Source: Methanomicrobiales archaeon HGW-Methanomicrobiales-2 (GTDB lineage Archaea; Halobacteriota; Methanomicrobia; Methanomicrobiales; Methanoculleaceae). From it: a stretch of 45,642 nucleotides of DNA. The notes under the pieces were generated by a model that saw only the letters and a list, made by a program, of their open reading frames with translations, did no database searches and was not told the origin of the DNA. Where the stretch lies: assembly GCA_002839645.1 (NCBI GenBank), contig PGYL01000016.1, positions 49,686-95,327 of the forward strand. Direction: 5' to 3'. Shown piece after piece: positions 38,839-45,642 of this stretch. Every line of letters begins with the position of its first letter. Within the stretch, counting starts at the first letter, position 1. Made by a program: the position numbers and the translations under genes.

Positions 38839-39405
38839 ATGAAATCGAGAGATATTGCAATCGTCGGCATACTCCTTGCCATAGGGGCCATCATCAGGTA
38901 CATGTCCCTCCTGATCCCCGGCCCCATCGTATCGAACCTTGTGATCGCCTTCTATAGCCTTGCCATCATCCTCATCGCGCCCACGTTCCGGGAGGCGCTC
39001 GGGATCGGCGTTGTGGCAGGTGCCGTCTGTGCCCTTCTCAGTCACTCGCTCTTCCCGCCCGCAAACCTGCTCAGCGAACCTATCGGAGCGGTCGTCTGTC
39101 TCGCGACCTACCTGGTGCTGAGAGACCGGTTCATTCTCGCCCCGGCAGTGGCGACGCTCGTTGCCACCTTCGCGAGCGGGTTCTCCTTCATCATCATCGC
39201 GCTCCTCGCGGTGGCCCCGACGGTCCTTGACAAGTTCGGGACCATGGAAGCGTTCCTCGTAGTCACCGTGCCGATCGTCCTCATCACGGCGGCGGTCAAC
39301 GCCGTCGTTAGCCAGGTGCTCGAGGTGCCGGCATCGCGGGCACTGATGCGGGGGGCCCGGCAGGCGGCCCCGGCACGGGACGCGAGGCCGGCAGATGACT
39401 TCTGA
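38839..39405 (+). CDS. ECF transporter substrate-binding (S) component
   Basis: A 188-residue membrane protein with five to six hydrophobic helices (first at about 6-25, last at about 142-165) and the small-residue-rich helix of S components (GIGVVAGAVCALLSHSLFPP). It is followed with an 11-nt overlap by a fused double ATPase and then by the T component, so this operon encodes a complete dedicated ECF importer. The ligand is not predictable: there is no neighbouring vitamin or metal gene. It resembles the 'tryptophan/unknown ligand' group more than CbiM or BioY, which is only an impression. Confidence 0.82.
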   Translation: MKSRDIAIVGILLAIGAIIRYMSLLIPGPIVSNLVIAFYSLAIILIAPTFREALGIGVVAGAVCALLSHSLFPPANLLSEPIGAVVCLATYLVLRDRFILAPAVATLVATFASGFSFIIIALLAVAPTVLDKFGTMEAFLVVTVPIVLITAAVNAVVSQVLEVPASRALMRGARQAAPARDARPADDF

Positions 39406-40843
39406 GGCCGGCCAGACCGCCCTCTCCCTTGAGAACGTCTCCTACACCTACTCCGGATCCGGGACGCCGGCACTCAACGGGATCAGCCTCGATCTCGGGA
39501 GAGGGGAGATCGTCTTCGTCACCGGCCCTACCGGGGCCGGGAAGACGACCCTCTGCCTTGCGGCGTCCGGCATTCTCCACCACGAGTACGGCGGCACACT
39601 CGAGGGTGCGATCACCATCCTCGGGAAGAGCGTCCGGGACTACCGGAGCATGGCCGAGATCGGGAGAACCGTCGGGGTGGTCTTCGACGACGCCGACGCC
39701 CAGCTCATCTTCACGACCGTCGAGGAGGAGGTGGCCTCCGGGCTTGAGAACCTCGGGATCCCCCGTGAGGAGATGCGGCAGAGGCTCTGCCAGGTGATGG
39801 AGGCGACCGGGATCACCGACCTCGCGGACCGGGCCCCACACACGCTCTCCGGGGGACAGAAACAGCGGGTCGCGATCGCCGCGACCCTCGCCCTCGGGAC
39901 AGCGGTCCTGGTCCTCGACGAACCGACCGCCGAACTGGATGAAGAGGCGACCGGTGCGATATCCGCCCTCCTCCGGCGGCTCTCGGGCGAGGGCACGGCC
40001 GTGCTCATCGTCGAGCAGAAACTTGGCGAACTCGCCGCCATCGCGGACCGGATGGTCCTCGTTGAAGACGGAGCGATCGTTGCACAAGGGTCTCCTGCGC
40101 AGATGCTGCAGGAAGACCGCCTGCAGCACCTTGCCTTCGACGACGCCCGGCCCACTGCACCGGCGGAAACTCCCCTGGCAGGGGCGCCCTCTATCATATC
40201 CGTCCACGGGCTCGTCCACCGTTACGACGGGGTTACGGCCATCGGTGGTCTCGACCTCGAGATTGCTCCCGGTGAGATCGTGGCCGTGGTCGGGGAGAAC
40301 GGGTCCGGAAAGACGACACTCGTCAAGCACTTCAACGGGCTGCTCCGCCCCACCGAAGGCAGCGTCACGGTCGACGGTCTCGATGCCGCGACCGTCCCGA
40401 TAGCAGATCTCGCACGCCATGTGGGTCTCGTCTTCCAGAACCCGGATACCATGCTCTTTGCGGAGACCGTCGAGGACGAAGTGGCCTTTGGTCTTGGGAA
40501 CATCGGCGCCGGCGACCCGGGGCAGTCGGTAGACGCGGCCCTCCGCGAGGTCGGCCTCCTCCACCGGAAGGCGACCTACCCGCGTTCACTCTCGCGGGGC
40601 GAGCGGCAACGCCTGGCGATCGCCTGCGTCATCGCCATGAAGCCGAACGTGATCGTGCTCGACGAGCCTACGACCGGGCTCGATGCCCGGGAGTCAGGAA
40701 GGGTCATGGAGATCCTCGGGCACCTGCGGCAGGATGGCCACACGGTCGTCATGGTGACGCACGACATGCGTCTTGGCGTGGAGTATGCGGACCGCATCGT
40801 CAGGATGGAGCAGGGAAGGATCGTCCGCGACGAGAGAACCTAG
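39395..40843 (+). CDS. ecfA: ECF transporter energy-coupling ATPase, two ABC domains fused (EcfA1-EcfA2)
   Basis: A 482-residue protein with two ABC ATPase domains in one chain. Domain 1: Walker A GPTGAGKT (44-51), signature LSGGQKQR, Walker B VLVLDEPTAELD. Domain 2 (from about 270): Walker A GENGSGKT (about 302-309), signature LSRGERQR (about 399), Walker B VIVLDEPTTGLD. Both sites look catalytically complete, with LSGG changed to LSRG in the second. The domains power uptake with EcfT and the S component. It overlaps the S gene by 11 nt. Confidence 0.93.
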   Translation: MTSEAGQTALSLENVSYTYSGSGTPALNGISLDLGRGEIVFVTGPTGAGKTTLCLAASGILHHEYGGTLEGAITILGKSVRDYRSMAEIGRTVGVVFDDADAQLIFTTVEEEVASGLENLGIPREEMRQRLCQVMEATGITDLADRAPHTLSGGQKQRVAIAATLALGTAVLVLDEPTAELDEEATGAISALLRRLSGEGTAVLIVEQKLGELAAIADRMVLVEDGAIVAQGSPAQMLQEDRLQHLAFDDARPTAPAETPLAGAPSIISVHGLVHRYDGVTAIGGLDLEIAPGEIVAVVGENGSGKTTLVKHFNGLLRPTEGSVTVDGLDAATVPIADLARHVGLVFQNPDTMLFAETVEDEVAFGLGNIGAGDPGQSVDAALREVGLLHRKATYPRSLSRGERQRLAIACVIAMKPNVIVLDEPTTGLDARESGRVMEILGHLRQDGHTVVMVTHDMRLGVEYADRIVRMEQGRIVRDERT

Positions 40844-40853
40844 GAGAAGAACC

Positions 40854-41639
40854 ATGGCCGAAATCATGCAGTACGTCACCCGGGAGAGCGCCTTTCACCG
40901 CCTCCACCCGCTCACCAAACTGATCTTTGCCGCCGTCGTCGTGGCCCTTGCGGTGCTGACGAGCGATACCCTGATGCTCGCGGTCCTTGCCGGGGCGGTC
41001 GTAGCCGTAGCGGTAGTGAGTGGGCTCGCCCGCGACCTCCTTCGCCAGGTCCCCCTGTTGATCTCGCTCGTGGTGAGTCTGCTTGCCCTCACCATCCTCA
41101 CCATCCGGAGCGGGGATACCCTCGGCTACCTGGTCCCTCCGTCGGTCCCGGTCATCGGCGGGGCTTTCCCTGTCACGGCGGGAGCGATCGACCTTGCGCT
41201 CGCGATGTCGCTTCGGTTCGCGGCGATGCTCTTTGCGTTCCAGCTCCTGGTCATATCCACCCAGCCGCGCGACCTCGTCCACGTCATGGACCGCCTCCGG
41301 ATGCCTGTCGACTACACGCTCATGTTCCTGATTGCACTCCGGTTCATCCCGAGCCTGCAGCTCGAGGGGAAGCGGATCCACGAGGCGCAGCTCGCCCGTG
41401 CCTACAACCCGGGGAGAGGCCCTGCCGGCAGTATCAGGGGGCTCTTTCCCATCATCATCCCGCTGGTCTCAAACTCTCTCGGGAAAGCCACGGTCCTCGG
41501 TCTGACCATCGACCTCCGGGGCTACCGCTCCGGCAGGCGGACGCCGATGCGGGACCTCGCCCCGGGCAGGGTCGATGTCGCGGGGATCTGCTGCATGAGC
41601 CTTGCGGTCGCAGGGTATTTGGCCGTGCTGCTCGTATAA
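40854..41639 (+). CDS. ecfT: ECF transporter transmembrane (T) component
   Basis: A 261-residue membrane protein with about five to six helices and the two coupling motifs of EcfT proteins, here QLARAYNPGRG (about 181) and LRGYRSGRRT (about 222), which contact the ATPases. N-terminal YVTRESAFHRLHPLTKLIFA is typical. The ATG at 40854 follows AGGAGAAG and is 10 nt after the ATPase stop; the longer in-frame upstream extension is a shadow of the ATPase. Confidence 0.92.
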   Translation: MAEIMQYVTRESAFHRLHPLTKLIFAAVVVALAVLTSDTLMLAVLAGAVVAVAVVSGLARDLLRQVPLLISLVVSLLALTILTIRSGDTLGYLVPPSVPVIGGAFPVTAGAIDLALAMSLRFAAMLFAFQLLVISTQPRDLVHVMDRLRMPVDYTLMFLIALRFIPSLQLEGKRIHEAQLARAYNPGRGPAGSIRGLFPIIIPLVSNSLGKATVLGLTIDLRGYRSGRRTPMRDLAPGRVDVAGICCMSLAVAGYLAVLLV

Positions 41640-42155: not shown

Positions 42156-43121
42156 ATGGGCAATCTGAATGTTGCCGTGCTGGGACCCGCGGGGTACGCG
42201 AAGGACCTCGGGAAGAAGGGCACGGAATCCGATATCACCTTCTATAACCTGAAGAAGGGCGACGATACCGTCACCATCATCGAGCCTACGCGGTATCCCG
42301 AGCGGCTGGCCCCGCTCTTCTACGCCGCATCGATGGCGGATACGGTTCTCATCGTGGTGAGTGAGATCACTCCCATGCTCGGGGAGTGGGTGCTGATGCT
42401 CGATGAGGTGGGGGTAGAACAGGGCTGCATCATTCTCAGAAACTATGTAACGCCCGAGCAGATAGCGCCGCTCCTCCGCGGAACGGTGCTCGAGCACTAC
42501 GAGTTCGTGGACGCCGACCCGATCGCGCTGCGCGACCGCCTGCTCCGCGAGGCGCACGCCCGGCCCTCCGTCCAGCCCGGCGCCGGTGCCGTGGGAACGA
42601 TCCCCATCGATCACCATTTCAACGTCCGCGGCATCGGGACGGTCATTCTCGGCGGCGTGGTGCGAGGGGGTATAAAGAAGCACGATACCCTGAAGATCTA
42701 CCCCGGGGAGCAGGCGATCATGGTGCGCTCCATCCAGAAGCATGACGACGACTTCGACTGGGCCGCCGAGGGCGACCGCGTGGGGCTCGCGCTCAAGAAC
42801 ATCGAGTCCGACGACCTCGACCGGGGCTTTGTCCTCTCAGACGATCCCGCCATCCGGACCCGGACGACCCTTGAGGGCCGGGCGACGCTGGTCAAATACT
42901 GGCCGGCAGCGCTCACGGCAGGGACGGTGCTCCACATCGGCCACTGGATGCAGTTCATCCCGGCGCGGGTAGAGGCGGTACGGGATGACGGGAACTGGCG
43001 GCAACCGACGCTCACGCTTGCGCTGGAGAAAGATCTCGTCTACCTCCCCGGCGATATGGCGGTGCTCCACTACCTTGAGGGTGGGAAGCTCCGGATTGCC
43101 GGGCATATCGAACTGCCCTGA
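42156..43121 (+). CDS. EF-Tu/SelB-like protein with a degenerate GTPase domain (archaeal SelB-like family)
   Basis: A 321-residue paralogue of EF-1A/SelB. The beta-barrel domain 2 is well conserved (FNVRGIGTVILGGVVRGGIK, KIYPGEQAIMVRSIQKHDDD, GDRVGLALKNIESDDLDRGF) and domain 3 follows (ATLVKYWPAALTAGTVLHIG). The N-terminal G domain has lost its motifs: the P-loop position reads GPAGYAKDLG instead of GHVDHGKTT, and no DxxG or NKxD can be found. It is also shorter than working factors (about 400 or more). It fits the archaeal SelB-like group rather than a working selenocysteine factor. A role in translation or tRNA binding without GTP is inference. Confidence 0.85.
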   Translation: MGNLNVAVLGPAGYAKDLGKKGTESDITFYNLKKGDDTVTIIEPTRYPERLAPLFYAASMADTVLIVVSEITPMLGEWVLMLDEVGVEQGCIILRNYVTPEQIAPLLRGTVLEHYEFVDADPIALRDRLLREAHARPSVQPGAGAVGTIPIDHHFNVRGIGTVILGGVVRGGIKKHDTLKIYPGEQAIMVRSIQKHDDDFDWAAEGDRVGLALKNIESDDLDRGFVLSDDPAIRTRTTLEGRATLVKYWPAALTAGTVLHIGHWMQFIPARVEAVRDDGNWRQPTLTLALEKDLVYLPGDMAVLHYLEGGKLRIAGHIELP

Positions 43122-44278: not shown

Positions 44279-45316
44279 TTAGACGAGTCTGAAGAGTGGG
44301 TGAGTATCCACCTTGGGCTCGATACCGAGGTCGCGCACCGCTTCCAGCACAACGATATCGACGTAGGCCTGTGCGGTGATCATCGCCTCGACATTCTCGA
44401 TCGGGCCGTACATGATCAGGTCGGCACCGAGCGTGCTTGCAACCATGTTGCATCCGATATCGGGTGCAGACCAGGCCGCCTGGCGCATTCCATCCACGCC
44501 ACCGAGATAGTGGTGGGTGAGCTGCTCGATAAGGGCATCTTTGCCCTCGAGGCCGGCCAGCTGCTGGGAGGGGTTCTTCTTGGTTCCCTTCCACCGCTTC
44601 AGCCAGGTCCAGGAAACCGTCATGTTGTGGTAAGCACCACCGGTCGGCAGGCCGTGGATCGCCTTGCAGGCGAGAATCTCACGGTATGAACCGCCGGAGC
44701 CGAGACCGAGCGGGGTTGCTGCGGTATCGAGGATGGGGCGGGTGATGCCGCACTTCTCTGCGATCTCGAGCATACCGAGCTCCTGCCCGGCTACGCCACC
44801 CTCGACCAGAACCTTCTCACGGCCGGTGACCGACGGGTCGGCGGGGTTGAAGGCGAGGACGATGGCTGCGCTCACATCGCTCTTGGCCAGCGCTTCGATG
44901 TTCTCGGGTATGATCGAACCGTTGATCGAGTTGTAGATCGCACGGTCCGCGATGCCCGCCTGAGTGACGTAATCGCACGCATGGGCGAGCGCCGCCGGGA
45001 CGGAAGAGTCCATCAGGAACGCGGTCTTGTCGTCGATTCCACAGAACCAATCGATATAACTCTCGAAGGCCTCGCCGTATTCCGCGATGATCTGAATGAA
45101 GTGCGGAATGCCGGTGATATCCGAGAGTTCCCGGCAGCGGTTCCAGAGCGCCTCTGCCTTCAGCTTGTCGATCTTTCCGGTGTGGTCATCCAGAACAACT
45201 TCGTGTTTGTTGTAGAAGATGGATGCACCGAGCACGGTCGGGTACTCTCCAGGCTGCCCGCCGATCATGGTACCGTTGAAGTTGTGTACCGTCTGCTCTT
45301 TTTCGAACTTGAACAT
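44279..45316 (-). CDS. mtrH: Tetrahydromethanopterin S-methyltransferase subunit H
   Basis: A 345-residue MtrH, the soluble subunit that moves the methyl group from methyl-H4MPT to the corrinoid on MtrA, in the complex that couples methyl transfer to coenzyme M with sodium export. FKFEKEQTVHNFNGTMIGGQ, YPTVLGASIFYNKHEVVLDD and GLGSGGSYREILACKAIHGL, LGADLIMYGPIENVEAM are conserved, in a TIM-barrel fold. ATG 45316 matches homologues' start; a TTG nine bases upstream is in frame. GGAGG lies before it. It is the last gene of the mtr operon. Confidence 0.97.
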   Translation of the reverse strand: MFKFEKEQTVHNFNGTMIGGQPGEYPTVLGASIFYNKHEVVLDDHTGKIDKLKAEALWNRCRELSDITGIPHFIQIIAEYGEAFESYIDWFCGIDDKTAFLMDSSVPAALAHACDYVTQAGIADRAIYNSINGSIIPENIEALAKSDVSAAIVLAFNPADPSVTGREKVLVEGGVAGQELGMLEIAEKCGITRPILDTAATPLGLGSGGSYREILACKAIHGLPTGGAYHNMTVSWTWLKRWKGTKKNPSQQLAGLEGKDALIEQLTHHYLGGVDGMRQAAWSAPDIGCNMVASTLGADLIMYGPIENVEAMITAQAYVDIVVLEAVRDLGIEPKVDTHPLFRLV

Positions 45317-45331
45317 ATTCGTCAATCCTCC

Positions 45332-45642
45332 TTACAGGAACCCAACCAATTTGGGCAGTAATACCAACAACATCATGAATACAATCAAACCTGCAACCAG
45401 TCCGTACAGGATGCCGATGTCGCGCCCGACTTTTCGTCCGACGCGCTGGGCTATCTCTGCATCGACGAACTCGATCCTCTCTTCGATAGCGTTGAGCCGC
45501 TCTTCGATCTCGAGGAACTGTGGGTTTGCGCCTGCAGCGGCAACCTCTGCCGCCCCGCCTGCTTCCTTGACCTCAACAATCATGGGTTCTGCGCCGAACG
45601 CACCGGGATCTTTGGCCTTGAGTTCGTTGATCTTGGCCTTGA
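45332..45642 (-). CDS. MtrA C-terminal linker joined in frame to MtrG (subunit A-G fusion), 5' end outside the window
   Basis: The last 103 codons of a frame that is open to the window edge. The upstream part, KAKINELKAKDPGAF followed by GAEPMIVEVKE, matches the region that follows the corrinoid domain of MtrA (KDPGAFDADP in Methanosarcina). The downstream part, EERIEFVDAEIAQRVGRKVG then RDIGILYGLVAGLIVFMM, is the conserved MtrG signature and its transmembrane helix. No stop or gap separates them. The internal ATG at 45583 would give an 83-residue stand-alone MtrG, but the upstream MtrA-like residues are in the same frame. mtrF, which normally lies between, is absent. mtrH follows after 15 nt. 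Confidence 0.75.
   Translation of the reverse strand, partial: KAKINELKAKDPGAFGAEPMIVEVKEAGGAAEVAAAGANPQFLEIEERLNAIEERIEFVDAEIAQRVGRKVGRDIGILYGLVAGLIVFMMLLVLLPKLVGFL

Follow-up and report, generated by a model that had tools for sequence, protein, structure and literature searches.

The last minus-strand reading frame of the DNA analyzed here (a stretch of 45,642 nucleotides, referred to below as the window) is almost certainly the 3' end of mtrA-2b in a Methanoculleus-like genome, whose operon would read mtrE-D-C-B-A1-F-A2::G-H; an ordinary mtrA-1 and mtrF are to be expected, with about 1.24 kb lost from the draft. The fusion and its arrangement have been known since 2015, when Wang et al. 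described a second mtrA of the Methanomicrobiales that is fused to mtrG and lies between mtrF and mtrH, namely, mtrA-2b (PMC4632066); as a discovery, the frame reported here adds nothing new.

Fused frame at the end of the window

In this genome, MtrA and MtrG are one polypeptide. The minus-strand frame 45640–45332 is a single open reading frame of 102 aa, open at its 5' end, in which residues 1-30 match positions 142-171 of the Pfam MtrA profile (PF04208; E = 5e-6) and residues 41-93 match positions 11-63 of the MtrG profile (PF04210; E = 7.5e-24). The MtrG part scores 83.9 bits, which is above the curated PF04210 cut-off of 27, and the fused frame is independent of chance matching. The initial annotation had proposed one continuous frame for MtrA and MtrG, which is confirmed, and anchorage of the corrinoid domain of the fused copy by the MtrG helix, which is supported. 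It had also advised extending the sequence past 45642 and translating it. This assembly has no sequence beyond that point, and the check was run on close relatives, in which the frame stays open all the way back through an entire MtrA domain (e.g., 245 aa in L035, L036, and L050). The gene for MtrH comes directly after the fused frame, making the fusion the upstream neighbor of mtrH (Table 1).

Table 1. Features at the right end of the window
Feature	Position	Strand	Evidence
3' part of mtrA-2b (the mtrA-2::mtrG fusion), truncated at the contig end	45332..45640	-	102-aa open frame; PF04208 142-171 and PF04210 11-63
Final 30 residues of the MtrA corrinoid domain, with the PMIVEVKE segment	45551..45640	-	PF04208 on frame residues 1-30; match G000:C50:95236-95325
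Short Gly/Ala-rich linker from MtrA domain to MtrG helix (bounds approximate)	45521..45550	-	Between the two Pfam stretches; 13-14-residue tether in 18/18 relatives
MtrG portion, with its cytoplasmic stalk helix and its transmembrane helix	45335..45520	-	PF04210 11-63; complete fusion of a close relative matches MtrG chains 9qtq/8q3v
mtrH, next operon gene	44279..45310	-	PF02007, E = 1.8e-96

Contig ends and the apparent loss of mtrF

The right end of the window is also the end of contig C50 (C50:95327), and it falls inside the MtrA domain. Besides this, the genome holds just one piece of mtrA sequence, the first 38 positions of a copy that directly follows mtrB and is cut off where contig C59 ends. 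When placed on relatives, C59 breaks off 105 nt past the conserved SGWP anchor in mtrA-1, and the C50 sequence picks up 406 nt past the same anchor in mtrA-2; between these two points the relatives have 1228–1249 nt, a stretch that holds the helix of mtrA-1, then mtrF, then the first part of mtrA-2. Comparison with the relatives thus suggests that C59 and C50 would join and that the draft has lost approximately 1.24 kb, namely, most of mtrA-1, mtrF in its entirety, and the first part of mtrA-2.

The gap in the assembly is best explained by the near-identity of the two mtrA copies. In the relatives, the DNA of the A1 domain is 82.6 to 100% identical to that of the A2 domain, including exact tracts as long as about 500 bases, and such identity is enough to collapse a short-read assembly. 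In this genome, the mtrA-1 (C59) and mtrA-2 (C50) fragments share no overlap, and A1 was compared with A2 only in the relatives.

Our survey of mtrF and mtrA covered 41 genomes, this one and 40 relatives. mtrF was present in all 30 genomes whose mtrA is unbroken; it was not found in the other 11, this genome included, and in each of these mtrA is absent or cut at a contig end. Elsewhere in this genome, a profile search gave just two sub-threshold PF09472 matches, and the MtrF protein of a close relative, used as a query, found no match. The sub-threshold match on contig C51, which sits within a 419-aa frame, was rejected as a chance match. We conclude that the apparent loss of mtrF is an assembly artefact.

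At least one scaffold of another genome imitates the single mtrA–mtrG gene of the earlier reading: in G163 (L059; G163:C54:5500-9000, about 1785-2471), the start of mtrA-1 is joined to the end of mtrA-2::mtrG over 57 N, without mtrF. This join is likely to be a mis-join and would mislead annotation. Draft Methanomicrobiales genomes call for caution, since mtrF and parts of both mtrA copies vanish from them through the near-identity of the copies.

Operon layout in relatives and alternative explanations

In all 18 relatives inspected, which represent six families of the order, the genes follow the order …B–A1–F–A2::G–H, so that mtrA-1, with its own C-terminal helix, is followed by mtrF and then by mtrA-2::mtrG. 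The mtrA-1 and mtrA-2 domains have been reported to be homogenized by gene conversion (PMC4632066), and our tree of 36 domains, in which A1 pairs with A2 by genome in 18/18 relatives, agrees with that process. In family f2 (L039, L041, and L044), the identity of mtrA-1 and mtrA-2 is only 82.6 to 90.7%, compared to 95.8 to 100% elsewhere; homogenization in f2 is therefore weaker or older, although the copies are still paired by genome. His85 of the GTEVKGH motif, the axial ligand, is present in every A1 and A2 copy of the relatives; in this genome, the corresponding position of mtrA-2 falls in the unassembled part. The A2 tether, which links VEVKE to the beginning of the stalk helix, has 13–14 residues in the 18 relatives, and the comparable A1 measure, for which the end mark is placed differently, is 17–18 residues.

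mtrG was found in 179 of the 232 Methanomicrobiales genomes, with one match per genome, and the listed frames are mostly 240–320 aa long, which is the fused length. Twenty short mtrG frames were inspected: 18 came from contig ends and 2 had an N gap inside the domain. No separate, unfused mtrG was found in the order, either among these 20 cases or wherever flanking sequence was present. Outside the order, elsewhere in the phylum, no listed mtrG frame exceeds 143 aa, a size that fits a separate gene, and most of these frames align with the profile from close to its first position. One of the 18 contig-end cases of the order, G137 (L060; end of C5), holds a full domain; the MtrA domain of its mtrA-2::mtrG is interrupted by a one-base frameshift (...VNI / MESED...), which is probably a sequencing error in that draft genome.

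The initial annotation had read the fused gene as the sole mtrA, with mtrF lost and a complex of fewer subunits, and the draft assembly does lack mtrF and a second complete mtrA. However, the gap is flanked on both sides by contig ends that lie inside mtrA, and one unique mtrA would offer the assembler no repeat to break on. Moreover, mtrF occurs in all genomes with an unbroken mtrA and is absent from precisely those in which mtrA is broken or lacking, and two mtrA copies are present in the 18 relatives inspected; we consider this explanation highly improbable. Searches of the draft found neither mtrF, for which it had advised looking, nor a second complete mtrA, but recovered the opening part of mtrA-1 where C59 ends, which tells against a sole, fused MtrA. 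The claim that mtrF is missing is not confirmed, as its expected place is not in the assembly and the relatives have a separate mtrF immediately upstream of the fusion; the suggestion that MtrF is dispensable is unsupported, since the same relatives keep that gene beside the fusion. Nor do the data support a subunit count changed through lost subunits, given the full-length mtrA-1, with its own helix, and the mtrF that stand as separate genes in the relatives. The initial annotation had itself named such a pair as evidence against its reading, and the relatives carry both genes.

It can also be envisioned that misassembly has joined mtrA to an mtrG that is really a separate gene, the frame stopping as it does at a contig edge; yet the same continuous frame is found in many independent genomes, single-contig ones included (G003, G019, G023, G025, G033, G037, and G038), and we give this idea virtually no credence, as the closed genomes refute it. 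A further proposal, that free MtrG is also made, by internal initiation (e.g., at ATG 45583, M-IVEVKE) or by proteolysis, so that the stalk contains ordinary MtrG, draws on an in-frame ATG that precedes the linker here and in many relatives and would give an 83-aa product, near the length of MtrG. However, this codon sits within the conserved end of the MtrA domain, and in several families the Met is swapped for Ile or Leu (PIVVEV, PIIVEV, PLVVEV, and PIVIEV). Furthermore, the ATG is not preceded by a GGAGG- or GGTGA-like site, whereas GAGGTGA is found at many of the operon's own starts. Because the ATG is not conserved and has no visible ribosome-binding site, internal initiation is unlikely, and we regard free MtrG by either route as improbable.

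Known systems and the proposed role of the fused subunit

Our preferred reading, the 3' end of mtrA-2b, agrees with the published gene of the Methanomicrobiales in its domain order and its operon place directly upstream of mtrH and, through the relatives, in an MtrA domain nearly identical to that of mtrA-1 and an upstream mtrF; it differs only in the contig-end cut of the gene (PMC4632066). The arrangement is reminiscent of mtrA-2a, the mtrA-mtrF fusion of the Methanococcales and Methanocella arvoryzae, which is likewise a second mtrA copy that has lost its own helix and been joined to a downstream single-helix subunit. Unlike mtrA-2b, its partner is MtrF, not MtrG, and its origin is reported to be independent (PMC4632066).

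Both solved Mtr complexes that we found come from lineages without the fusion. The MtrA soluble domain and the MtrG helix match by sequence those of the canonical complexes of Methanothermobacter marburgensis (8Q3V) and Methanosarcina mazei (9QTQ); however, in those complexes MtrA and MtrG are separate chains and there is one corrinoid domain per protomer. Residues 1–167 of a close relative's complete fusion match the MtrA domain chains, and the MtrG chains match from residue 183 (9qtq and 8q3v). Compared to canonical MtrG, the fusion has the MtrA linker in place of the first 12-16 residues. Each of the stalk subunits A, B, F, and G of the solved complex is a single helix whose N terminus is cytoplasmic, and a flexible linker carries the corrinoid domain of MtrA (PMC10998594; PMC12774963).

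We postulate that the MtrG helix of the fusion would take its normal place in the central stalk and that the cytoplasmic N terminus of MtrG would carry a second, catalytically complete corrinoid domain on the tether of 13-14 residues. MtrA-2 may then be a working second methyl carrier, anchored via the MtrG helix, and MtrA-1 and MtrA-2 would provide two methyl-carrying domains per protomer that shuttle between MtrH and MtrCDE. Because no separate mtrG was found, each protomer is expected to have two corrinoid domains; judging from the gene content, it is on balance probable that every Methanomicrobiales Mtr protomer would necessarily carry two working corrinoid domains, giving the sodium pump twice as many mobile methyl carriers as in the solved structures. 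The fusion of the genes is itself published; the literature searched held no measured stoichiometric consequence of the fusion. A Methanomicrobiales complex would show whether the stalk can accommodate two corrinoid domains in one protomer. An AlphaFold2 model of the fusion, built with 13 sequences, was poor (mean pLDDT, 51), with only the C-terminal helix (204–244) partly confident.

Elsewhere in the window, the genes at 38839-41639 (plus strand) form a predicted ECF-type transporter cassette; they encode a double ABC ATPase (PF00005) and a CbiQ-like T component (PF02361), together with a small membrane protein that matches no Pfam family. The 321-aa protein encoded at 42156-43118 (plus strand), which has no recognized GTPase domain and matches only one Pfam family, elongation factor Tu domain 2 (PF03144), is perhaps a degenerate EF-Tu/SelB-like protein.
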